Part shown: positions 4,609 through 29,157 of the stretch, one piece after another | Layout: every line of letters begins with the position of its first letter | Numbering within the stretch: position 1 is the first letter of the stretch | Source: a virus | DNA length: 39,741 bases | Virus record (IMG/VR): IMGVR_UViG_3300019888_000011 | Span: 1-39,741 of that record | Reading direction: 5' to 3' (one strand) | Notes under the pieces: model-generated | The model's database searches: none | Told to the model about the DNA's origin: nothing | The model's input: the letters and a program-made list of their open reading frames with translations, nothing else | Made by a program: the position numbers and the translations under genes

Positions 4609-6540
4609 GTGTTCAAGATCAAGATTCTGTGGCACAGCAACGCACCGGAGCCGATGTCGGCGACCGGGTACGGCGTGCAGACCGCGCTGTTCACCCGGCG
4701 GATCGCCGACCTCGGCCACGACGTGGCGATCAGTTGCATGACGGGGATCTCCGGGTTCCCGTCGCAGTGGGAGGGCCTGCCGTGCCTGCCGGGCGGGCTG
4801 ACCGCCTACTCGGGTGACATCCTGTCCGAGCACGCCCGGCATTTCTTCGGCCGTGGCCCCGGCCTGATCCTGGTCCATTACGACGCGTGGGCGATCGGCC
4901 CGGAGGCGCTGGGCGGGCACGCCACGGCGGCGTGGTCCCCGGTGCACTCGCAGCCGATGAGCGCGGGCGACCGGATGTTCTACGGCCTGTCCGGGGCGCA
5001 GCCGATCGCGTTCTCCCGGTTCGGCGAGAAGATGATGCGCGAGGCCGGGCTCCAGCCGGCGTATGTGCCGCACGGCGTGGACACCTCGCTGTTCCGGCCG
5101 CTGGACGCCGAGGAGCGGGTCACGGTGCGGCGGGCGCTGAATGTCCCCGACGGCGCGTTCGTGGTCGCGGTGGTCGCGGCGAACAAGGGCACCGACCCGC
5201 CGCGCAAGGCGTGGGGCGAGCTGTTCCACGCGTTCGCGGCGTTCCGCAAGCGGCACGGCGAGGCGATCCTGCTGGTGCACTCGATGGCGGCCACTCCCGA
5301 GGGGTGGGGGCTGGACATGCGCCCGCTGATCGGCTACCTGGGCCTGGGCGGCGCGGTGATCTTCTCCGACGACTACGCGCAGGTCGCGGGCCTGTACTCG
5401 GCGGGGTACGTGGCGGGGCTGACCGGCTGCGCGGACGTGCTGGCCAACCCGTCCTACGGGGAGGGGTTCGGCCTGGCCGCGCTGCAGGCGCAGGCGTGCG
5501 GGGTGCCGGTGATCGTCGGCGACAACTCGGCGCAGACCGAGCTGTGCGCCGCCGGGTGGAAGGTGGCGTGCCAGCCGTACTGGCACTGGCGGGACGCGGC
5601 GAACTGGGCGGCCCCGTCGATCAAGGGGATCACCGCCGCGCTGGAGAAGGCCTGGAAGCAGGCGCAGAACCCGGCCGCGACGGCGAAGGCGGCGCGGGCC
5701 GGCCGCCAGTTCGCCGAGGGGTATGACGCGGACCTGATCACCACCCAGTACTGGAAGCCGGTGCTGGAGATGCTGGAGCAGTACGCGGGCGCGGCGCGAG
5801 TCCGGCCGCCGGGCAACGGCGGCACGGTGAGCCTGCCGGTCGCCGAGGCCGACGGGCTGCGCTGGCTGGCGCGGGGCCGGCACACCGACGACTGGATCTC
5901 GGTCGGGCACGAGGACGCGCTGGCGCCGACCCTGGACGCGCTCCTGCCGGCCGGCGGGGTGCTGCTGGACGTGGGGGCGCATGTGGGCCGGTGGTCACTC
6001 CGCCTGGCTGCGAAGGCCTCAAGGGTCATCGCCGTGGAGGCCAGCCCGGACACCGCCGCCTGCCTGCGCTACCACATCGCCCTGAACAAGATCACTAACG
6101 TGGAGGTGGTCGAGGCCGCCGCGTGGGACGAGCACACCCGGCTGGACCTGTTCGACGCCAACCACCAGGTGACCGGCGGCTCCACCCGGGTGGTCGCGCC
6201 CGATGAGGCGGCCGAATCCGAGGGCGCGACGGAGGCGTGGCCGCTGGACGCGCTGCTGCTCGATGAGGAAAACCCGGCCGCGAACCGGGTAGACCTGATC
6301 AAGCTCGACGTGGAGGGCGCGGACCTGCATGCGCTGCGGGGGATGCGCCGCATCCTGGAGCTGTGCCGCCCGGTGCTGTTCATTGAGGACCACTCGATCT
6401 ACGGCTACTACCAGCACGATGAGCTGATCGCGCTGCTGGCCGAGCTGGGCTATGATTCCCAGCCGCTGATCGCCCAGCTCGCCGGGGACCGGTCGGCGCC
6501 GTACGTGATCGCCCGCCCCCGGGCGGAGGCGCCGGCGTGA
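4609..6540 (+). CDS. GT4 glycosyltransferase fused to an FkbM-family methyltransferase
   Basis: A two-domain enzyme of 643 aa. Residues 1-395 form a GT-B glycosyltransferase (family 4 type): N-terminal Rossmann domain with MSATGYGVQTA, and donor-site segment SYGEGFGLAALQAQACG with E285. The second Glu of the EX7E motif is replaced by Gln (Q293). Residues 410-640 are an FkbM methyltransferase: SAM motif LLDVGAHVGRWS near 452 and DLIKLDVEGADLHAL near 565. The likely role is to attach a sugar and O-methylate it. Phage glycosyltransferases beside capsid genes are known to decorate virion proteins, so capsid or tail protein is the inferred target. GTG 4609 has AAGGGAG only 3 nt upstream. Confidence 0.85.
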   Translation: MFKIKILWHSNAPEPMSATGYGVQTALFTRRIADLGHDVAISCMTGISGFPSQWEGLPCLPGGLTAYSGDILSEHARHFFGRGPGLILVHYDAWAIGPEALGGHATAAWSPVHSQPMSAGDRMFYGLSGAQPIAFSRFGEKMMREAGLQPAYVPHGVDTSLFRPLDAEERVTVRRALNVPDGAFVVAVVAANKGTDPPRKAWGELFHAFAAFRKRHGEAILLVHSMAATPEGWGLDMRPLIGYLGLGGAVIFSDDYAQVAGLYSAGYVAGLTGCADVLANPSYGEGFGLAALQAQACGVPVIVGDNSAQTELCAAGWKVACQPYWHWRDAANWAAPSIKGITAALEKAWKQAQNPAATAKAARAGRQFAEGYDADLITTQYWKPVLEMLEQYAGAARVRPPGNGGTVSLPVAEADGLRWLARGRHTDDWISVGHEDALAPTLDALLPAGGVLLDVGAHVGRWSLRLAAKASRVIAVEASPDTAACLRYHIALNKITNVEVVEAAAWDEHTRLDLFDANHQVTGGSTRVVAPDEAAESEGATEAWPLDALLLDEENPAANRVDLIKLDVEGADLHALRGMRRILELCRPVLFIEDHSIYGYYQHDELIALLAELGYDSQPLIAQLAGDRSAPYVIARPRAEAPA

Positions 6541-17572: not shown

Positions 17573-20500
17573 ATGGCCAACGTCATGCGGTTCATGCTGC
17601 TCGCCGACGACAGGGCCGGCAGCGCGTTCAACCGGTTCGCCGACAAGGTGGATAAGGCGAACGGCTCGATGGACCGCAACCAGGCCGCCCTCAAGCGGCA
17701 GGCGCAGGCGTCCAAGTCCGCGCAGAACGGGCTGCTGACACTGACCGGGACGGTCACCGGGTTCGGTGACGCCTCCCGCGCCGCCTCCAGCAAGGCCGGC
17801 ATGCTCGCCCGGGTGATGGGCGGTGTCGGGCTGGCCACCGGGCTGGCCGAGCCGCTGATGGCCGGGCTGCTGGTCACCACCGGGGCGCTGGCCGGCGCGC
17901 TGGTGACCGCCGGCGCGGGCGCGGGCGCCTTCATGGTCGCGCTGAAGCCGTCGCTGACGGTGGTGTCCGCCCTGATGAAGGCGCAGGCCACCTCGGTCAA
18001 GGCCGGGCAGATGGCGCAGCTCAACTACCAGAAGGCGCTCGCCGCCGGGGTCGCCCCGGCCACGGCGCTGGCCGCCAAGCAGGCCACGCTGGCCGCCAGC
18101 CAGCGGCAGCTCACGGCGGCGAACAAGCTGGCCTCCCCCGCCCAGCGCCAGCTCGCCGGCGAGCTGGTCAAGGCCAAGGACGCCTACAAGGCGTGGGGGC
18201 AGGCGCTGTCCGGGCCGGTGCTGGCGCCGCTGTCGATGGCCGTCAAGTTCATCCAGCCCGCCCTCAAGGCCATCGCCCCGCTGGCGCGGGCCGCCGCCGG
18301 GGCGTTCAAGACGCTGGTCGGAGAGCTGGGCGCCAACATCGCCGCCGGCGGGCTGACCCGCATCGTGGCGACCCTGCTGCCGCACGTCGTGCCGACCATC
18401 CTGAACCTGGCCCACGCCATCGGCAACATCACCGCCGGGATCTGGGGCGTGATCAAGGCGTTCCTGCCGATGAGCGACACGATCACGGGCGGGGTCGCCC
18501 GGCTGACCGCCCGGTTCAAGGAATGGGGCCTGTCCCTGCCGTCCCACAGCGGCTTCCAGTCGCTGATGGCCATGTTCAAGGGCCAGGTGCCGGGGGTCAC
18601 CGCCCTGTTCAAGAACCTGGTGATCATCGTCAAGCAGATCGCCACGGCGATAACCGGGCTGTCCACCCCCGCCAACTCCAAGGCCCTGATCCAGATCCTC
18701 ACCCCCCTGTCACAGATCATGGTCAAGCTGACCGCCAATCAGGGCCTGGTCCGGTCGGTCCTGTACTTCATGCTGATGAAGTCGGCGCTGAGCCAGCTCA
18801 AGCCCGCGTTCACCGGGGCCAAGCTCGGGATCGACGCGATCACCGGGTCCGCGACGGGCATCCAGAAAACCTACGGCGCATTCCAGAACCTGCGGGCCGG
18901 GTTCACGAGCGTCACTGCGGCCGGCCTGCCGATGACCGGCATGGCGGGGACCCTCGGCGGCAAGCTCAAGATCGTCGCCGACAAGGCCTCGGAGGCGGGC
19001 ACGGCGCTCGCCGGGAAGATCTCCGCCGGGGCGAACGCCGCCGCCAAGGGGCTCGCCGCTGCCGGGACGGCGGTCGCCGGCGTGGTCTCCTCCCTGGCCG
19101 CCAGCTCGTGGGCGTGGGTCAAGAACACCGCCGTGATGGTCGGGCAGAAGGCGGTGCAGCTCGCCGTCGCGGCCGGCACCAAGCTGATGGCCGCCGCGCA
19201 GTGGCTGCTGAACGTCGCGATGGACGCCAACCCGATCGGGCTGGTGGTCCTGGCGCTGGTCGCGCTCGGCGCCGCGTTCTACCTGGCCTGGACGCACAGC
19301 GCCACCTTCCGCAAGATCCTCACCAAGGCGTGGAACGCGGTGTGGGACGTGGCCAAGATCGTGATCGCCTGGTTCGCCGGCCCGTTCGTGAACTTCTTCA
19401 CCAAGACCATCCCGCATGTGTTCGGCCTGGTGCTGAGCTGGGTGAAGGCCAACTGGCCGCTGCTGCTGGGCATCCTGACCGGGCCGATCGGGCTGGCGGT
19501 GCTGTGGATCACCAAGCACTGGGGCGCGATCACCAAGTTCATGTCCGATTCGTGGCACACGATGACCAAGGCGGTGCGGGACGCGTTCGCCTGGATGGTC
19601 GATCAGGTGCTGGGTTTCTTCGGCACGATCCTGCACGGCGCCGCGACGATGCTGGGCTGGGTGCCGAACGTCGGCGCGAAGCTGAAGACCGCCGCCGCCG
19701 CGTTCGACACGTTCCGGCAGAACGTCAACGCCTCGCTGCGCGGCGTCAACGGGCATACGGTCACCGTCGGGGTCAACTTCAACAGCCAGGCGCTGGGGCT
19801 CGGCATCAACCCGGGGCCGCCGAAGTTCAAGGCGGCGGGCGGGCTGATCAGGGGGCCGGGCACCGGCACGTCCGACACGGCGGGCCTGTACTGGCTGTCC
19901 AACAAGGAGTACGTGCAGCAGGCCGCTGCCGTCGCCCACTACGGCACCGCGTTCATGGACGCGGTCAACGCGCGCCGGCTCCCGAAGATGGCCAGGGGCG
20001 GCATCCCCGGCGGCGGCATCGACGTGCGGACCTCGCTGCCGACGTCGGTGGTGATCGACCGGGCGATCGGCACGACCATCTCGGCGCTGGCCAGCGCGTT
20101 CGCCAAGGGCGTCCTGGGCGCCGGCGGGCCGATGATCGCCTACGCCCGCCAGTTCGTCGGCCGGGTGCCGTACGTGTGGGGCGGCACCACCCCCGCCGGG
20201 TGGGACTGCTCGGGGTTCACCTCGTGGGTGTACCACCACTTCGGGATCGGGACATGCCCGCGCACCTCCCAGCAGCAGCAGCTCTGGGCGGCCCCGTCGA
20301 TGGACCGGCCGGGCGCGCTGGCGTTCTTCTACGGCACCGGGGGCACCGCCCAGCATGTCGGGCTGTCGATGGGCAACGGGAAGATGATCAACGCCTACGG
20401 CACCGGGTTCGGGACGATCATCTCCCCGTCGCACATGGCCGGGTTCAGCGGGTTCGGGGTGCCGCCGGGCGGGCTGCGCAAGTTCGGCCGGGGCGGGCTG

Positions 20501-20713
20501 ATCACCGAGCCGATCATCGGCCTGGGGCTGCGCACCGGCCGGGGCGTCATGCTCGGCGAGGCCGGCATCGAGCGGGTCACGCCCGGCGCCGGCGCGGCCC
20601 GGCCAGCGGGCCCGCTGATCAGCTTCGGCGGTGACCTGGTCGTCCGCGAGGAGGCCGACATCGCGGTCCTGGGCCAGAAGCTCGGGTTCGCCATCCGCAG
20701 CGCGAGCTTCTGA
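17573..20713 (+). CDS. Tape measure protein with embedded NlpC/P60 peptidase domain
   Basis: A protein of 1046 aa that sets tail length and is ejected at infection. Long Ala-rich helices fill most of it. Hydrophobic segments lie at about 85-123, 553-573 and 625-645. Residues 855-955 carry an NlpC/P60 domain: PYVWGG, then WDCSGF with the catalytic Cys (C879), and QHVGLSMGNGKMINAY with the His (H928). Such domains cut peptidoglycan stem peptides and help the tail tip cross the cell wall. The C-terminal ~90 residues are Gly-rich with RGGLITEPIIG, common at tape measure ends. ATG follows GGAAGGAG by 5 nt. At about 0.15 nm per residue the tail would be near 150 nm. Confidence 0.9.
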   Translation: MANVMRFMLLADDRAGSAFNRFADKVDKANGSMDRNQAALKRQAQASKSAQNGLLTLTGTVTGFGDASRAASSKAGMLARVMGGVGLATGLAEPLMAGLLVTTGALAGALVTAGAGAGAFMVALKPSLTVVSALMKAQATSVKAGQMAQLNYQKALAAGVAPATALAAKQATLAASQRQLTAANKLASPAQRQLAGELVKAKDAYKAWGQALSGPVLAPLSMAVKFIQPALKAIAPLARAAAGAFKTLVGELGANIAAGGLTRIVATLLPHVVPTILNLAHAIGNITAGIWGVIKAFLPMSDTITGGVARLTARFKEWGLSLPSHSGFQSLMAMFKGQVPGVTALFKNLVIIVKQIATAITGLSTPANSKALIQILTPLSQIMVKLTANQGLVRSVLYFMLMKSALSQLKPAFTGAKLGIDAITGSATGIQKTYGAFQNLRAGFTSVTAAGLPMTGMAGTLGGKLKIVADKASEAGTALAGKISAGANAAAKGLAAAGTAVAGVVSSLAASSWAWVKNTAVMVGQKAVQLAVAAGTKLMAAAQWLLNVAMDANPIGLVVLALVALGAAFYLAWTHSATFRKILTKAWNAVWDVAKIVIAWFAGPFVNFFTKTIPHVFGLVLSWVKANWPLLLGILTGPIGLAVLWITKHWGAITKFMSDSWHTMTKAVRDAFAWMVDQVLGFFGTILHGAATMLGWVPNVGAKLKTAAAAFDTFRQNVNASLRGVNGHTVTVGVNFNSQALGLGINPGPPKFKAAGGLIRGPGTGTSDTAGLYWLSNKEYVQQAAAVAHYGTAFMDAVNARRLPKMARGGIPGGGIDVRTSLPTSVVIDRAIGTTISALASAFAKGVLGAGGPMIAYARQFVGRVPYVWGGTTPAGWDCSGFTSWVYHHFGIGTCPRTSQQQQLWAAPSMDRPGALAFFYGTGGTAQHVGLSMGNGKMINAYGTGFGTIISPSHMAGFSGFGVPPGGLRKFGRGGLITEPIIGLGLRTGRGVMLGEAGIERVTPGAGAARPAGPLISFGGDLVVREEADIAVLGQKLGFAIRSASF

Positions 20714-21594
20714 TGACCTACACCTCGATGACCCTGAGCGACCCGGCCAGCGGCTACTCCTCGGTGATCAAGCCCCGCGACGGGGTGTCGGTGATGGCCC
20801 TGGACGTGCAGTCCGCCGTCCGCGCGGTCACCTTCCCCCAGGTGCAGGCCGACGGCGTGATCGACCAGAGCATGTGGCTGGACACCGCCGCGTGCACCCT
20901 GGCGCTGCGGCTGTTCACCTCCGACGCCGGGATGACGCCCGAGGACTACCTGGATGAGCTGTCGCCGCTGCTGGGCCCGTGGGTGCGCCCGGTCCTGACC
21001 GTCACCAATGACCAGTGGGCCGGGCCCCGGATGCTGACACTGCGGTTCGACTCGCGGGCGGCGCCGGTCGATAACCCGGTGACCACCGATGTGGCGCTGA
21101 GCTGGAAGGTGCCGTCGGGCGGCTGGTCGGACACGGCCGCGACCGAGTTCACCGTCCCGGCGATCGTCGCCTCCACCACCGGCCTGCATTTCACCAGCGC
21201 CGGCGCGCACTTCACCAGCGCCGGCGCGCATTTCCCGGCGGGCGCGGCGTCCTCGGGCAGCATCGTGACCGTGGCCGGGTCGGTGCGCCCGCCCGGGCGG
21301 GCCCGGATCTACGGGCCGTGCACCGGGCCCCGGCTGACCTCCGACACCGCCGGCGGCGACATCATCTTCACCAGCGCCCTGGCCCTGGCCGCCGGACAGT
21401 ACCTGGACCTGGACTCGGTCGCGCGGACCGCGAACCTCAACTCTGACCCGGGCCAGTCGCAGCTCGCCCTGCTCGACTTCCTGAACACCACCTGGTGGCA
21501 GCTTGCGCCCGGCCCGAACCTGATCCGCTACCACCCGCTGACGGGTGGCGGCTCGGCGGCCGTCCTGGATTTCACCCCCGGCTACCTGCCGTGA
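20713..21594 (+). CDS. Distal tail protein (Dit-like)
   Basis: A protein of 293 aa right after the tape measure gene (TGATG overlap), the standard place of the Dit hub. The N-terminal half (residues 1-145) is beta-rich with VMALDVQSAVRAVTF and WVRPVLTVTND, as in siphovirus Dit proteins. A short tandem repeat (HFTSAGA twice, near 158-173) links it to a C-terminal galectin-like half (RIYGPCTGPRL, NLIRYHPLTGGG), which fits the two-domain Dit layout. It links the tail tube to the tip protein encoded at 23195. Confidence 0.75.
   Translation: MTYTSMTLSDPASGYSSVIKPRDGVSVMALDVQSAVRAVTFPQVQADGVIDQSMWLDTAACTLALRLFTSDAGMTPEDYLDELSPLLGPWVRPVLTVTNDQWAGPRMLTLRFDSRAAPVDNPVTTDVALSWKVPSGGWSDTAATEFTVPAIVASTTGLHFTSAGAHFTSAGAHFPAGAASSGSIVTVAGSVRPPGRARIYGPCTGPRLTSDTAGGDIIFTSALALAAGQYLDLDSVARTANLNSDPGQSQLALLDFLNTTWWQLAPGPNLIRYHPLTGGGSAAVLDFTPGYLP
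21187..21234 (+). repeat. Short in-frame tandem repeat (21-nt unit)
   Basis: The unit CAYTTCACCAGCGCCGGCGCG occurs at 21187-21207 and 21208-21228, and starts a third partial copy at 21229. It encodes HFTSAGA in the linker of the Dit-like protein. Such a short repeat can vary linker length by slippage. Confidence 0.8.
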
Positions 21595-23194: not shown

Positions 23195-26100
23195 ATGACC
23201 ACGCGGGGCAACAGCTTCGAGGGCATCGGCAACGGCGTCACCGTCACGGCCGCCAACTCGGGCGGCGTTTCCGGGGACGCGTTCGATAGCGTGACGATCC
23301 CGGCCGGCTGCACGGTGATCTCCGATAACACGCACGCGGCGCACGGCGGCCAGGCCTGCAAGCAGCAGATCGGCGGCACGGCGCTGGGCTGCGCCGTCAA
23401 CTGGCTGCTGACCGCCGCCGGCACCGTCTACTACCGGGCCTACCTGTACGTGCCCGCGTTCCCGTCAGCCACGATCCGGGTCGTGAACGTCCGCTCAGGC
23501 GCGTCGTTCGCCGCCGCCATGGCCCTGACCGCCACGGGCAAATTGCAGATGCAGGCCTCTACCGGCGGCCAGATGGCGATCACCACGGCGTCGGTGCCGA
23601 CGGGCGCCTGGTTCCGGGTCGAGGGTTTCTTCATCGCGAGCGCCACGGCCGGGCAGGCGCGGGTGAAGCTGTTCACCTCGATGGACTCCACCAGCCCGGC
23701 GGAGACCAAGACGTCGGCGGCCACGTTCAACACGCTCGCGAACTTCGACCAGACGCAGATCGGCATCGCCTCCAACGTCGCCACCACCGGTCCCTGGTGG
23801 CTGGACGACCTGGCCGTATCAACGGCCGGCTATGTCGGCCCGTTCGTCACCGGAGGCGGCGGCGGCGGCGGGACGGCAGGCAAGACCGGCGCGTTCCTGA
23901 AGTTGATCAATTTCAACGCGCTGACCGGGCAGTCCGCCACCTTCGACGGCGGCAACGGGAACTGGACGCCGGCGGGGAACTCCTCGATCGCCAACTCGGC
24001 GGTGTCACCGCATAACGGGTCCGGGGCGATGCGGCTGACGTCGCTGGGTCCATCCGCCGGGCTGATGGACGCGGCGTCCTGCACCGCCGCGAACATCACC
24101 ACCCAGGGCAAGCCGTGCACGGCGGGTGACACGATTTCCTGCTCAGCGTGGCTGAAGGCGGTCACGGTCGCGCGTAACTGCCAGGTCGGGGCCGCGTTCT
24201 ACACCGCCGCCGGGGTGCTGTGCACGGGCACGAACCCGGTCATGGTGGCGGGCGGCGCCACGAACTCCACGTCGGCGTACACGCTGGTGCAGGGGCAGGT
24301 CACCACGCCTTCGGGCGTGAGCGCGGCGTTCTGCCGCCTGCATGTGCGGGTCAACGCGACAGCGGGCACGGGCGAGCAGCATGACGTGGATGACGCCCAG
24401 CTCGGCCCGTCCACCCTGGCGCAGGCCATCACCCAGTGGACCGCGCTGTCGGCTCGCGGCCTGGACGTGCGGCGCGAGTACTTCGCCGCCGGCCAGTACG
24501 GCACCGGGGCGTTCGCGATCACCGCCGACCTGACCGCTGACGCCGCCGCCGGGCGGAAAGTCTGCCTCACCCTGAGACCGCCGTACAACCCGGTGTCGGC
24601 GACCGACCGCACGAACATGGCCACGTTCCTGGCCTCCTGCGCGGCGGCCGGGCTGGTCATGGATATCGCGTTGTGGCATGAGCCTTTTTACAGCGGCCTG
24701 TCGGCGGCGCAATATATTGCGATGGTCCAGTATTACGGGCCGACGATTCAGGCCGCCGGCTACCCGGTGGTGTTCTGCACCGCCAACTCGGCGATTAAGA
24801 ATAATGCCGAGAACACGTATTATCCCGGCGACGCCTATATTGATAAAGTCGCGACGGACTATTATGCGCAAGGGTATGTCTCCGGGGATACGCTGGACGA
24901 TGCGGCGTCGATAGCTGACGCGGCCAGCCCGCGCAAGCCCTTCGGCGTGTGGGAGCTGAACGCCTCCACTGACACCGGCTCCGGGCAGACCACGCTGCAG
25001 GGCACGAACTACTTCAATTACCTCCGGTTGTTCTTCAACGCCCGCCTGGTGGCGGGCAAGACGAACGCCGACCTGCTGATCTTCAATGCCGACAGCAACG
25101 CCGGGCAGGAAACCCCGATCACGATGCCGGGGGACTACCGGATCGCCTTGTGGCAGGCCCAGTACGACGCCGGGGCGGTCACGGTCGGCGCGGGCGGCGC
25201 GGTCGGCGCCTACCTGAACCCCAGCAAGTTCGGGGCGGGCACCACCCTGGCGCAGGCCATCACCGACTGGCAGTCGGTGACCAGCCGGCCCCTGGACGCC
25301 CGCCGGGTGTACTTCACGCCGCTGCAAATCCCCGCCGCGATCACGACCGACCTGCTGGCCGACCAGGCGGCGGGCCGCAAGGTCTGCATGTCGCTGCGGC
25401 CCGATTTCGGGCCGCCCACCACCTCGGCCGCAGCGGCGCTCGACACGTTCCTGTCGTCCTGCAAGGCCGCCGGGCTGGTGGCCGACGTGGCCTTGTATCA
25501 CGAGCCCAACCAGGGCATGAGCATGGCCCAGTTCATTGAGGCCTTCCAGTTCTATGCCCCGACGATCAAGCAGTATTACCCGCGAGTATTCTGCACGTCC
25601 AGCTATTTCGTGCAGCACGGCGGCGGCAACGCATGGTATCCCGGCGACGCGTTTGTCGATAAGATCGCGACCGACATTTACGCGTCTGAGTATGACGGCG
25701 GGATCCGGCTGGACCTGCCCGCGTCGCTGGCTGATGCCGCCACCCCGCCTAAGCCGTTCGGGATCTGGGAGTTCAACTCCTCCACCGACGCGGCGCAAGG
25801 GCAGACGCAGGCGCAGTCGGCGACGTTCTTCACCTACCTGAAGCAGTTTTTCCAGGGCCGCCTGGCGAGCGGGAAGCCGAACTGTGACCTGCTGCTGTTC
25901 AACAGCGACAGCAACCTGTCCCAGGAAACCCCGATCATCACCGCCGGCGACTACCGGGTCGGCGAGTACCAGGACCTGTACGACGGGCTGACCACCCCGC
26001 CGGTCGGGTCGCAGACCAGGCCGCTGGCCGTGGCGGTCACGCTGACCGTGACCGTCAGCGCGGGCCTGGCCGGCGGGATCCCGATCGGGCCGCCGCCGCC

Positions 26101-27373
26101 GCCGCCGGTCCTGCCGCCGGCGGCGCAGGTGCTGACAGTCGCCGACTGGTCGTTCGTGATCGGGCCGCGCCAGCCTGCGGGCGGGCACGCGCTGGCGCTG
26201 ACCGAGGCCCGGAACCGGACGGCGGTGTTCCGCTGCGATCCCGGCACCTCGCATGAGGCGTCGTTCGACATTGACGGCCGCAGCGTGCAGGCGTCCGGGT
26301 TCGCCGAGCTGATCAGCGACCTTCAGGTGATCCGCAACGGGCAGATCCTGGCGGCGCTGCGGATCGTGCCGACCGCCGACCAGCTCGATGCGATGCAGCA
26401 TGTGGTGTCGGTGACGGCGCGGGACTACCGGGAGGTGCTGCGCCGCCGGCTGGTGCTGCCGGGGGACGCGCTGACCTGGAACGGCCCGGACGTGGTCGTG
26501 AACTCCGGTGACTTCTCGGGCGGCGGCGGCGGCGGCGCGGGCCCGCCGTTCACCGACCAGGCGGTGATCGCGTGGCAGATCATCCAGGGCGTCCAGGCCC
26601 GCAACGGCGGCGACCTGGGGATCGTGCCGGGCGCCGGGCAGGCCACCGGCCACGGCCCCGACTACGCCATCGGCGTCGGCGATTTCGCCGGCGACGCGAT
26701 CGACGCCCTGGCGCAGACGGCCAACGGGTTCGACTGGGACATCACCGCTTACGGCCCGGCGGACCTGCGGCTGGACATCTGGTCGCCGTACCGGGGGTTT
26801 GACCGGGGCGTGATCCTGGAGCACGGCGGCGGCCTGGTCGCCAGGACGGGCCGCACGGTGGACCCGTCAGCGTTCGCGAACGCGTGGCTGGTGACCGGCA
26901 GCCAGGCCAGCGGCACCAGCAACACCGGGTTCATCGGCAGCGGCGGGGGCGGCGGGGGCGGCAGCGCCCCGCCGCCGAATTGGATCGTCGTGTCAGAGCC
27001 GGGACTGCCCGCTGACCCGGCGGGCCGCTGGGATCAGGTGGACGGCACGTCGCTGGCGACGTTCCCGGCGGTCAGCGCCCGCGCCTACCGGGACCTGGCC
27101 AACGGCCTGGCGGTCATCCCGTCGTATGTGATCGAGCTGTATCCCGGCAAGTGGGGCGGCCCGGGCCACATCTGGCTCGGCGACGCGGTCACGGTGCGGG
27201 TCATGTCGGGGCGGCTGCGGGTCAACGACAAGCTGCGGGTCAGCGAGATCGCGGTGACGATCGGCGAGGAAGGCCAGGAGCAGGTGACCCTGACCGTGGG
27301 CCGCGCGCCGCTGGGCCCGCACCGGCTGATCGCCAGGATGCTGCGGCGCATCCAGCACCTGGAGCTGCGGTGA
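23195..27373 (+). CDS. Tail-tip protein with LamG-like, CBM-like and two tandem glycosidase domains
   Basis: A protein of 1392 aa. Residues 1-225: concanavalin-like beta sandwich ending in WWLDDLAVST. Residues 230-400: CBM_4_9-like module ending in DVDDAQLGPS. Residues 407-665 and 683-945: two related TIM-barrel glycosidase domains, each starting TLAQAIT-W; they share HEP (E496, E770) and PFG-WE-N (E587, E859) as acid/base and nucleophile candidates, resembling GH26/GH5 enzymes. A Gly/Pro linker with PPPPPP (about 960-975) leads to residues 980-1392, a tip domain like Gp37/minor tail proteins (VVSVTARDYREVLRRR, then ALAQTANGFDWDI). Role: bind and cut host glycan during adsorption. AAAGG precedes ATG by 7 nt. 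Confidence 0.8.
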   Translation: MTTRGNSFEGIGNGVTVTAANSGGVSGDAFDSVTIPAGCTVISDNTHAAHGGQACKQQIGGTALGCAVNWLLTAAGTVYYRAYLYVPAFPSATIRVVNVRSGASFAAAMALTATGKLQMQASTGGQMAITTASVPTGAWFRVEGFFIASATAGQARVKLFTSMDSTSPAETKTSAATFNTLANFDQTQIGIASNVATTGPWWLDDLAVSTAGYVGPFVTGGGGGGGTAGKTGAFLKLINFNALTGQSATFDGGNGNWTPAGNSSIANSAVSPHNGSGAMRLTSLGPSAGLMDAASCTAANITTQGKPCTAGDTISCSAWLKAVTVARNCQVGAAFYTAAGVLCTGTNPVMVAGGATNSTSAYTLVQGQVTTPSGVSAAFCRLHVRVNATAGTGEQHDVDDAQLGPSTLAQAITQWTALSARGLDVRREYFAAGQYGTGAFAITADLTADAAAGRKVCLTLRPPYNPVSATDRTNMATFLASCAAAGLVMDIALWHEPFYSGLSAAQYIAMVQYYGPTIQAAGYPVVFCTANSAIKNNAENTYYPGDAYIDKVATDYYAQGYVSGDTLDDAASIADAASPRKPFGVWELNASTDTGSGQTTLQGTNYFNYLRLFFNARLVAGKTNADLLIFNADSNAGQETPITMPGDYRIALWQAQYDAGAVTVGAGGAVGAYLNPSKFGAGTTLAQAITDWQSVTSRPLDARRVYFTPLQIPAAITTDLLADQAAGRKVCMSLRPDFGPPTTSAAAALDTFLSSCKAAGLVADVALYHEPNQGMSMAQFIEAFQFYAPTIKQYYPRVFCTSSYFVQHGGGNAWYPGDAFVDKIATDIYASEYDGGIRLDLPASLADAATPPKPFGIWEFNSSTDAAQGQTQAQSATFFTYLKQFFQGRLASGKPNCDLLLFNSDSNLSQETPIITAGDYRVGEYQDLYDGLTTPPVGSQTRPLAVAVTLTVTVSAGLAGGIPIGPPPPPPVLPPAAQVLTVADWSFVIGPRQPAGGHALALTEARNRTAVFRCDPGTSHEASFDIDGRSVQASGFAELISDLQVIRNGQILAALRIVPTADQLDAMQHVVSVTARDYREVLRRRLVLPGDALTWNGPDVVVNSGDFSGGGGGGAGPPFTDQAVIAWQIIQGVQARNGGDLGIVPGAGQATGHGPDYAIGVGDFAGDAIDALAQTANGFDWDITAYGPADLRLDIWSPYRGFDRGVILEHGGGLVARTGRTVDPSAFANAWLVTGSQASGTSNTGFIGSGGGGGGGSAPPPNWIVVSEPGLPADPAGRWDQVDGTSLATFPAVSARAYRDLANGLAVIPSYVIELYPGKWGGPGHIWLGDAVTVRVMSGRLRVNDKLRVSEIAVTIGEEGQEQVTLTVGRAPLGPHRLIARMLRRIQHLELR

Positions 27374-28281: not shown

Positions 28282-29157
28282 ATGACGATCTTCTACCCGG
28301 ACATTTCCGGTTTCCAGGCGGGCGTGGACCTGCGCGGCGCGGTCGCGGTCGCGGCGAAGGCCACCGAGGGCAGCGGCTTCGCCAACCCGGACTACGGCCG
28401 GGCGAAGGCGAACGCGGCCACCCACGGCGTGTTCTTCACCGCCTACCATTTCCTGCTGCAGGGCGGCGGCGGCGGCCAGGCCGCGCACGCCCGCTCGGTC
28501 GCGGGCGGCGCGCCGCTGATGCTGGACGTCGAAGCCGAGGGCAGCTCACGGCCGGGTGTCGGCGACGCCGTGGAGTTCATCGACGCCTACCGCAAGGCCG
28601 GCGGCCTCACCCACCTGGTGTACCTGCCGCACTGGTACTGGCAGGCGATCGGGGAGCCGTCGCTGCGCCCGCTGGAAGCACGCGGCATGGCGCTGGTCTC
28701 CTCGGCCTACACCCTGTACACCGACCGTGATTCGGGGACCGGCTGGCAGCCCTACGGCGGGATGACCCCGCTGGTGTGGCAGTACACTGACCGGCTGCGC
28801 TTCAACGGCCGCGACGTGGACTTCAACGCGTTCCGTGGCGGCCACCCCGGCGACCAGTCCGGCGGCGCGGTCGCCGACGCCCTGGCCCAGTTCAAGACGC
28901 TGTGCGCGACCGGGAAGCTGCCCGCCGCCGGGCACCCCGGCGGCACCCCGGCGGTGCCGGCCGAGCGGCTGGCCACCGGGAAGGAGTCGCTGCGGCACGC
29001 GGTCCGCCGGGAGGGCACCACGGTGCCTAGGGCGCTGTGGCTGATGGCCAGGGCGCACGGCGACGGGCACTTCGGCCACCCGTCCCAGGCGGCCTACATC
29101 ATCGCCGGCGACTGGGACGCGATCATGCCCTGGCACATGGTGTACTGGGTCGGCTGA
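28282..29157 (+). CDS. Endolysin, GH25 lysozyme (muramidase)
   Basis: A peptidoglycan muramidase of 291 aa that releases progeny. Residues 3-200 form the GH25 barrel: YPDISGFQ (D7), AAKATEG (E29), LMLDVEAEG (D82, E84) and VWQYTD near 166 are the active-site segments. Residues 205-291 are a Pro/Gly linker and a compact C-terminal domain (LRHAVRREGTTVPRALWLM, FGHPSQAAYIIAGDWD) that could bind cell wall; I do not recognise its family. There is no signal peptide, so release needs the downstream membrane proteins. GAGGAG at 28270-28275 lies about 6 nt before ATG. Confidence 0.9.
   Translation: MTIFYPDISGFQAGVDLRGAVAVAAKATEGSGFANPDYGRAKANAATHGVFFTAYHFLLQGGGGGQAAHARSVAGGAPLMLDVEAEGSSRPGVGDAVEFIDAYRKAGGLTHLVYLPHWYWQAIGEPSLRPLEARGMALVSSAYTLYTDRDSGTGWQPYGGMTPLVWQYTDRLRFNGRDVDFNAFRGGHPGDQSGGAVADALAQFKTLCATGKLPAAGHPGGTPAVPAERLATGKESLRHAVRREGTTVPRALWLMARAHGDGHFGHPSQAAYIIAGDWDAIMPWHMVYWVG

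Follow-up and report, generated by a model that had tools for sequence, protein, structure and literature searches.

The window analysed here, meaning the whole stretch of DNA, is an IMG/VR viral record of 39,741 bases with a GC content of 72%. One of its genes encodes a tail-tip protein with two internal domains that resemble each other and that a first-pass annotation took for glycosidase barrels duplicated in tandem within the gene. The locus raises the question of what these domains are, whether one arose from the other in place, and what they might do at the tip of a phage tail. The gene lies after those for the tape measure (17573-20713) and a Dit-like protein (20713-21594), and is followed by an endolysin gene (28282-29157). 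Its product ends in a hub-type domain homologous to tail proteins: residues 1000-1392 were 45% identical to the hub protein of L005, which is itself without barrels, and the hub part matched phrog_1885 (minor tail protein; E = 1.4e-12). A weak match to Sipho_Gp37 was also seen, and no relative of the hub was found among annotated phages. The barrel-free L005 hub and the phrog_1885 match indicate that the window protein consists of some 1000 residues placed ahead of an otherwise ordinary hub. The features of the protein, all on the plus strand, are as follows:

23195..27373, plus strand: tail-tip (hub) protein of 1392 aa, a single ORF
23195..23845, plus strand: N-terminal domain, residues 1-217, with a relative in contig L002
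23885..23902, plus strand: TGAFLK, residues 231-236, a family motif and the proposed beta1 of barrel 1
23915..24409, plus strand: CBM (CBM4/9/16-like), residues 241-405, proposed to interrupt barrel 1 between beta1 and alpha1
24413..25183, plus strand: barrel 1 (alpha1 to alpha8), residues 407-663, GH26-like
24680..24682, plus strand: Glu496, predicted acid/base of barrel 1
24953..24955, plus strand: Glu587, predicted nucleophile of barrel 1
25196..25999, plus strand: barrel 2, residues 668-935, a complete (beta/alpha)8, GH26-like
25502..25504, plus strand: Glu770, predicted acid/base of barrel 2
25769..25771, plus strand: Glu859, predicted nucleophile of barrel 2
26000..26191, plus strand: Thr/Val- and Pro-rich linker, residues 936-999, recognized from the sequence itself
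26192..27370, plus strand: tail hub domain, residues 1000-1392, assigned by its identity to L005 and by phrog_1885

When the two halves were compared by BLASTP, residues 406-658 and 683-930 were identical at 134 of 253 positions (53%; E = 2e-94). The repeat alignment scored 684, against 37 ± 6 for the shuffled sequence. The alignment of residues 407-665 with 683-945 noticed earlier was therefore reproduced, and the two pairs of glutamates were found at exactly the positions given for them: E496 in an HEP motif and E587 in WEL (spacing 91), and E770 in HEP and E859 in WEF (spacing 89). In the parts alignable at the DNA level, the repeats were only 66-72% identical, which indicates that the barrel copies are old and have long been separated.

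An AlphaFold2 model of barrel 2, built from an alignment of eight sequences (mean pLDDT 73, pTM 0.76), had the full (beta/alpha)8 order with a low-confidence beta1; Glu770 lay just past beta4 and Glu859 within beta7. Its top five Foldseek matches in the PDB were all GH26 enzymes, and GH26 also headed the VIA-align 2 list (Z 15.9 and rmsd 3.3 over 215 residues). For an AlphaFold model of barrel 1 (residues 222-663; pLDDT 71, pTM 0.60), the first ten VIA rows were GH26-barrel chains with Z scores of 19.8-18.7, the following row scoring 17.3. The models of both barrels rest on 8-13 sequences, and beta1 has a pLDDT below 50 in each. Barrels of GH5, GH10, GH164, epimerase and AP-endonuclease type also matched the models at ranks under GH26, and count as less likely rather than rejected. 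The fold prediction proposed earlier as a check, namely TIM barrels with the glutamates in one pocket, agrees with these models, in which strands beta4 and beta7 carry the predicted catalytic residues at their C-terminal ends, the arrangement of clan GH-A.

Sequence profiles gave the same answer. A profile of the phage barrels searched against PDB sequences found GH26 enzymes (E = 2.7e-5), and in the alignment the phage HEP paired with the HE of the lichenase CtLic26, and WE with its AE; this HE and the later Glu are the acid/base and nucleophile of the lichenase. Profile-profile comparison with bacterial GH26 proteins, themselves collected by a scan, reached a probability of 97.7 (E = 1.9e-12) with the same Glu pairing. 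Among the families suggested for comparison (GH26, GH5 and GH39), GH26 was thus clearly the best by Foldseek, VIA and profiles alike. The window protein scored 16.5 bits against Pfam GH26, under the cut-off of 20.2, which was exceeded by two relatives, L003 (28.8 bits) and L048 (27.5 bits); NCBIfam gave no match for the barrels. Because the window protein falls under the Pfam cut-off, its barrels are named GH26-like here and not GH26 members. They combine a (beta/alpha)8 fold nearest to GH26 with a His-Glu pair after beta4, holding the predicted acid/base, and a predicted nucleophile Glu where beta7 ends. Both glutamates were invariant in the first eight barrels compared, while the His ahead of the acid/base varies in relatives (H, Q, P or S). 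The window barrels are GH26-like (beta/alpha)8 domains with predicted catalytic Glu pairs, and the original description of two glycosidase-type TIM barrels, each keeping both glutamates, on a tail-tip hub protein stands.

Relatives were found by alignment-based scans of viral contigs and by DNA patterns (YPGDA motif); none was returned by single-protein scans of viral contigs or by tblastn of annotated phage and plasmid collections. The barrel is present in ten more viral contigs (L002, L003, L004, L007, L008, L009, L031, L042, L048 and L050). L002 and L042 end at contig or locus ends and the other eight are whole; none of these eight contains two barrels side by side. Most relatives carry the barrel in tail proteins. 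L003, L004, L007, L009 and L031 matched phrog_5313 (function not given), L048 matched phrog_1885 and L050 phrog_2840, the last two phrogs being minor tail proteins. A search for prophage copies in 395 genomes of the Actinoallomurus class (E<=1e-8) yielded none, apart from one ORF with a part-profile match. The N-terminal domain of the window protein (residues 1-217) has a relative in L002 (38% identity over 216 aa; blastp 5.8e-34) and no match by Pfam or PDB sequence search; the LamG-like module previously placed there was not recovered.

The relatives bear on whether the two window barrels are sisters. Barrel 2 grouped with the L007 and L008 barrels (support 99/98) when eight barrels were placed in a tree, and a sister relationship between the window barrels was rejected (AU p 0.0027). 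With 13 barrels it was rejected again (AU p 0.0064), and barrel 1 grouped with those of L002, L003, L004, L009 and L042 (support 94/94). Further, barrel 2 was closer to the L007 barrel (64% identity) than to barrel 1 (53%). A recent duplication of one barrel in place within the tip gene would suit the level of identity between the copies and their head-to-tail arrangement in the same orientation, but both the rejected sister status and the closer kinship of barrel 2 with L007 make it very improbable. The tandem duplication inside this gene that had been proposed is consequently not upheld. Being non-sisters, the barrels indicate that the tandem unites two branches of one barrel family, either because tail genes recombined or because a duplication older than the split of these phages was followed by loss in the others.

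A second point concerns where barrel 1 begins. Within residues 407-665 its first beta strand is absent, and coverage by the family profile begins at position 8, as against position 2 in barrel 2. Barrel 2 and the relatives open with a strand motif such as VGAYLN or TGAYLN, after which come xxLGxST and then helix 1. In barrel 1, QLGPST precedes helix 1 but no strand does; the CBM (241-405) intervenes, and TGAFLK (231-236) lies just before it. The beta1 motif [VT]G[AV][FY][LV] occurs at two sites only in the tip protein, both at the expected places, and the probability of its falling by chance in the stretch before the CBM is about 0.001-0.004. The CBM itself was modelled as a beta-sandwich of CBM fold (Foldseek: 2zey, a CBM16, E = 4.3e-7; 8iqe, the K2-2 tailspike, E = 4e-6; 3p6b, E = 7.7e-6) and scored 15.0 bits against Pfam CBM_4_9, under the cut-off of 25.9. 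It is homologous to CBMs in L003, L004, L008 and L009 (blastp E-values among the five from 1e-18 to 1e-41), and a sixth was found in L031 by a profile of the others. In L009 the CBM splits the barrel at profile position 194/196, in the beta7-alpha7 loop, while in L003 and L004 it comes after beta8 and ahead of the final helix of the barrel.

The CBM of the window might instead be an ordinary N-terminal neighbour of a truncated barrel 1 lacking beta1, and the model is in line with this in that residues 231-236 have a pLDDT below 50 and no assigned strand. We consider it rather unlikely, because TGAFLK joined to QLGPST-LAQA rebuilds the beta1-loop-alpha1 sequence of the relatives, because the chance probability of the motif is low, and because in L003, L004 and L009 this CBM breaks into the barrel at other points. 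The structural alignments of barrel 1 also argue against truncation: all 50 listed by VIA begin at model residues 1-12, which places their start at the 231-236 stretch, with 232-266 residues aligned. The input alignment for this model of barrel 1 with the CBM contained no relative over beta1, so that the placement of the strand was not pushed. Barrel 1 thus probably starts at residue 231, with TGAFLK as beta1, and not at 407, and the CBM most likely sits inside its beta1-alpha1 loop, the evidence for this being good, if not final. Of the earlier description, the barrel in 407-665 is retained but its start is moved outside that range; likewise, the CBM-like nature of the preceding module is supported by a weak Pfam match, structure and homologues, but this module most likely lies within the barrel rather than merely ahead of it.

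Insertion is not restricted to CBMs in this family. The following loci were informative:

L048 (contig IMGVR_UViG_3300036828_000198), 853-4530, minus strand: nested-barrel tail protein, an ORF of 1226 residues
L050, 1786-2559, minus strand: tail protein that ends in a GH26-like barrel whose two catalytic Glu are replaced (WHGP, TQM)
L031, 3180-7979, plus strand: phrog_5313 protein with a barrel in its N-terminal part

In L048 a complete inner barrel (profile 4-238, residues 438-690) interrupts an outer one (residues 229-431 and 728-768) between profile positions 201 and 199, with Gly-rich junctions. L007 represents the empty site, its match to L048 running up to its residue 422 and resuming at 430, and the insertion site coincides with that of the CBM in L009. 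The outer barrel of L048 is without both glutamates (VDP, WRF), and the inner one retains both (QEP, FEL). The L050 barrel is likely a binding-only descendant; together with the outer barrel of L048, it suggests that binding alone can suffice in this barrel family. Barrels are also inserted in a small C-terminal domain, at one loop in L003 and L004 and at another in L009; the same domain is uninterrupted in the Streptomyces phages Chymera and phiSASD1. In L031, the CBM occupies the C-terminal-domain loop that holds the barrel in L003 and L004. The best reading of these proteins is that they carry divergent GH26-like tail-tip depolymerase or adhesin modules exchanged as nested cassettes. We lean, by a little, towards a general plug-in scheme for soil actinophage-type tails, in which the GH26-like barrel and the CBM would be interchangeable cassettes, each insertable in tail-protein loops: the CBM in at least three loops of the catalytic face of the barrel (beta1-alpha1, beta7-alpha7 and beta8-alpha8), and the barrel in its own kind at the loop that bears the CBM in another phage, the outer copy losing its catalytic residues. 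The tandem of two unlike barrels in the window would be one product of this scheme.

As to function, it seems fairly likely that the window protein is a hub carrying two divergent GH26-like retaining barrels, with a CBM inside barrel 1, that binds and cuts a host glycan, the barrels having been brought together by recombination, or kept since an old duplication, and not freshly duplicated in tandem. On contact, the CBM and barrels would attach to a beta-linked surface polysaccharide of an actinobacterial host, and the barrels would cut it locally during adsorption, letting the hub reach the wall. We speculate that two unlike barrels might serve for two linkages or decorations, rather than for repeated cutting of one chain; the processive cutting suggested earlier gained no support from these results. 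An actinobacterial host is suggested by three sequence clues, namely the high GC content, capsid relatives on Gordonia, Mycobacterium and Rhodococcus phages, and a receptor domain common to the relatives and Streptomyces phages.

The barrels could also be lectin-like adhesins derived from GH26 that still bind glycan but no longer cut it, as the loss of both catalytic Glu from L050 and the outer barrel of L048, with the fold motif kept on a tail protein, would lead one to consider. This is the most serious of the alternatives, though still an unlikely one: both glutamates are present in both window barrels and in most relatives, and of the 32 columns invariant in the six other phages, 29 are retained in barrel 1 and 28 in barrel 2, so that neither looks decayed. 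A secreted GH26 enzyme acting as a metabolic helper, breaking down polysaccharides of plants or soil to the benefit of the host, would have a precedent: soil viral contigs predicted to come from viruses of Actinobacteria are reported to carry GH26 mannanases, interpreted as auxiliary enzymes (PMC6460857; see also PMC10127799). For the window this is the least probable explanation of all, as the barrels are in frame with a tail hub in a tail gene cluster, and those of most relatives lie in tail proteins.

Compared with known GH26 enzymes (CtLic26, 2bv9/2cip; Vibrio beta-1,3-xylanase, 2ddx; AlXyn26A, 7xjr; mannanases 4zxo and 2bvt), the window barrels share the (beta/alpha)8 fold, the HE acid/base after beta4, the nucleophile Glu on beta7 and a YPGDxYVD motif. 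They differ in being about 11-18% identical to these enzymes, in the score of the window protein, which lies under the Pfam cut-off, in the variable His before the acid/base among relatives, in belonging to a phage tail hub and in having a CBM inside a barrel. The window CBM is a beta-sandwich like CBM4/9, CBM16, CBM22 and part of the tailspike of Klebsiella phage K2-2 (8iqe), but lies below the Pfam CBM_4_9 cut-off and is located in barrel loops. In siphophages of Gram-positive bacteria, CBMs are inserted in Dit loops and stand in tandem on Tal (PMC9692632), which resembles the present case in having CBMs in loops of tail-tip proteins and tandem carbohydrate-binding domains on Tal. In those evolved Dit and Tal proteins, however, the insertions are received by the galectin domain, a structural element, and the modules serve for binding, whereas in the window and its relatives catalytic barrels are inserted and are themselves insertion hosts. 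TIM barrels are preferred hosts of domain insertion (PMC13114784). Chitinase ChiW (PMC5132251) has two catalytic domains per chain, as does the tip protein, but it belongs to a bacterial cell surface rather than to a phage tail.

Enzymes at the tail tip are already known, as are tail proteins with inserted CBMs. Open literature searched at the level of titles, abstracts and selected papers yielded no account of a GH26-like barrel in a phage tail, of a CBM shifting from one barrel loop to another or of a self-nested barrel; within that scope, catalytic barrels that trade positions with binding modules, sit inside one another and degenerate into scaffolds seem to be undescribed. They offer the testable idea that a phage varies its tail tip, leaving the hub undisturbed, when a cassette in a loop that tolerates insertion is exchanged or receives another. 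Some GH26 genes that soil virome studies class as auxiliary metabolic genes (PMC6460857, PMC10127799) may likewise be parts of tail tips.

Two other proteins of the window deserve mention. The tape-measure protein (17573-20713, plus strand) ends in an NlpC/P60 domain, which likely gives the tail another enzyme that cuts the wall. Directly after the major capsid gene, positions 4609-6540 (plus strand) encode a glycosyltransferase (phrog_2170) fused to a methyltransferase (phrog_8156), a protein that may modify the virion.
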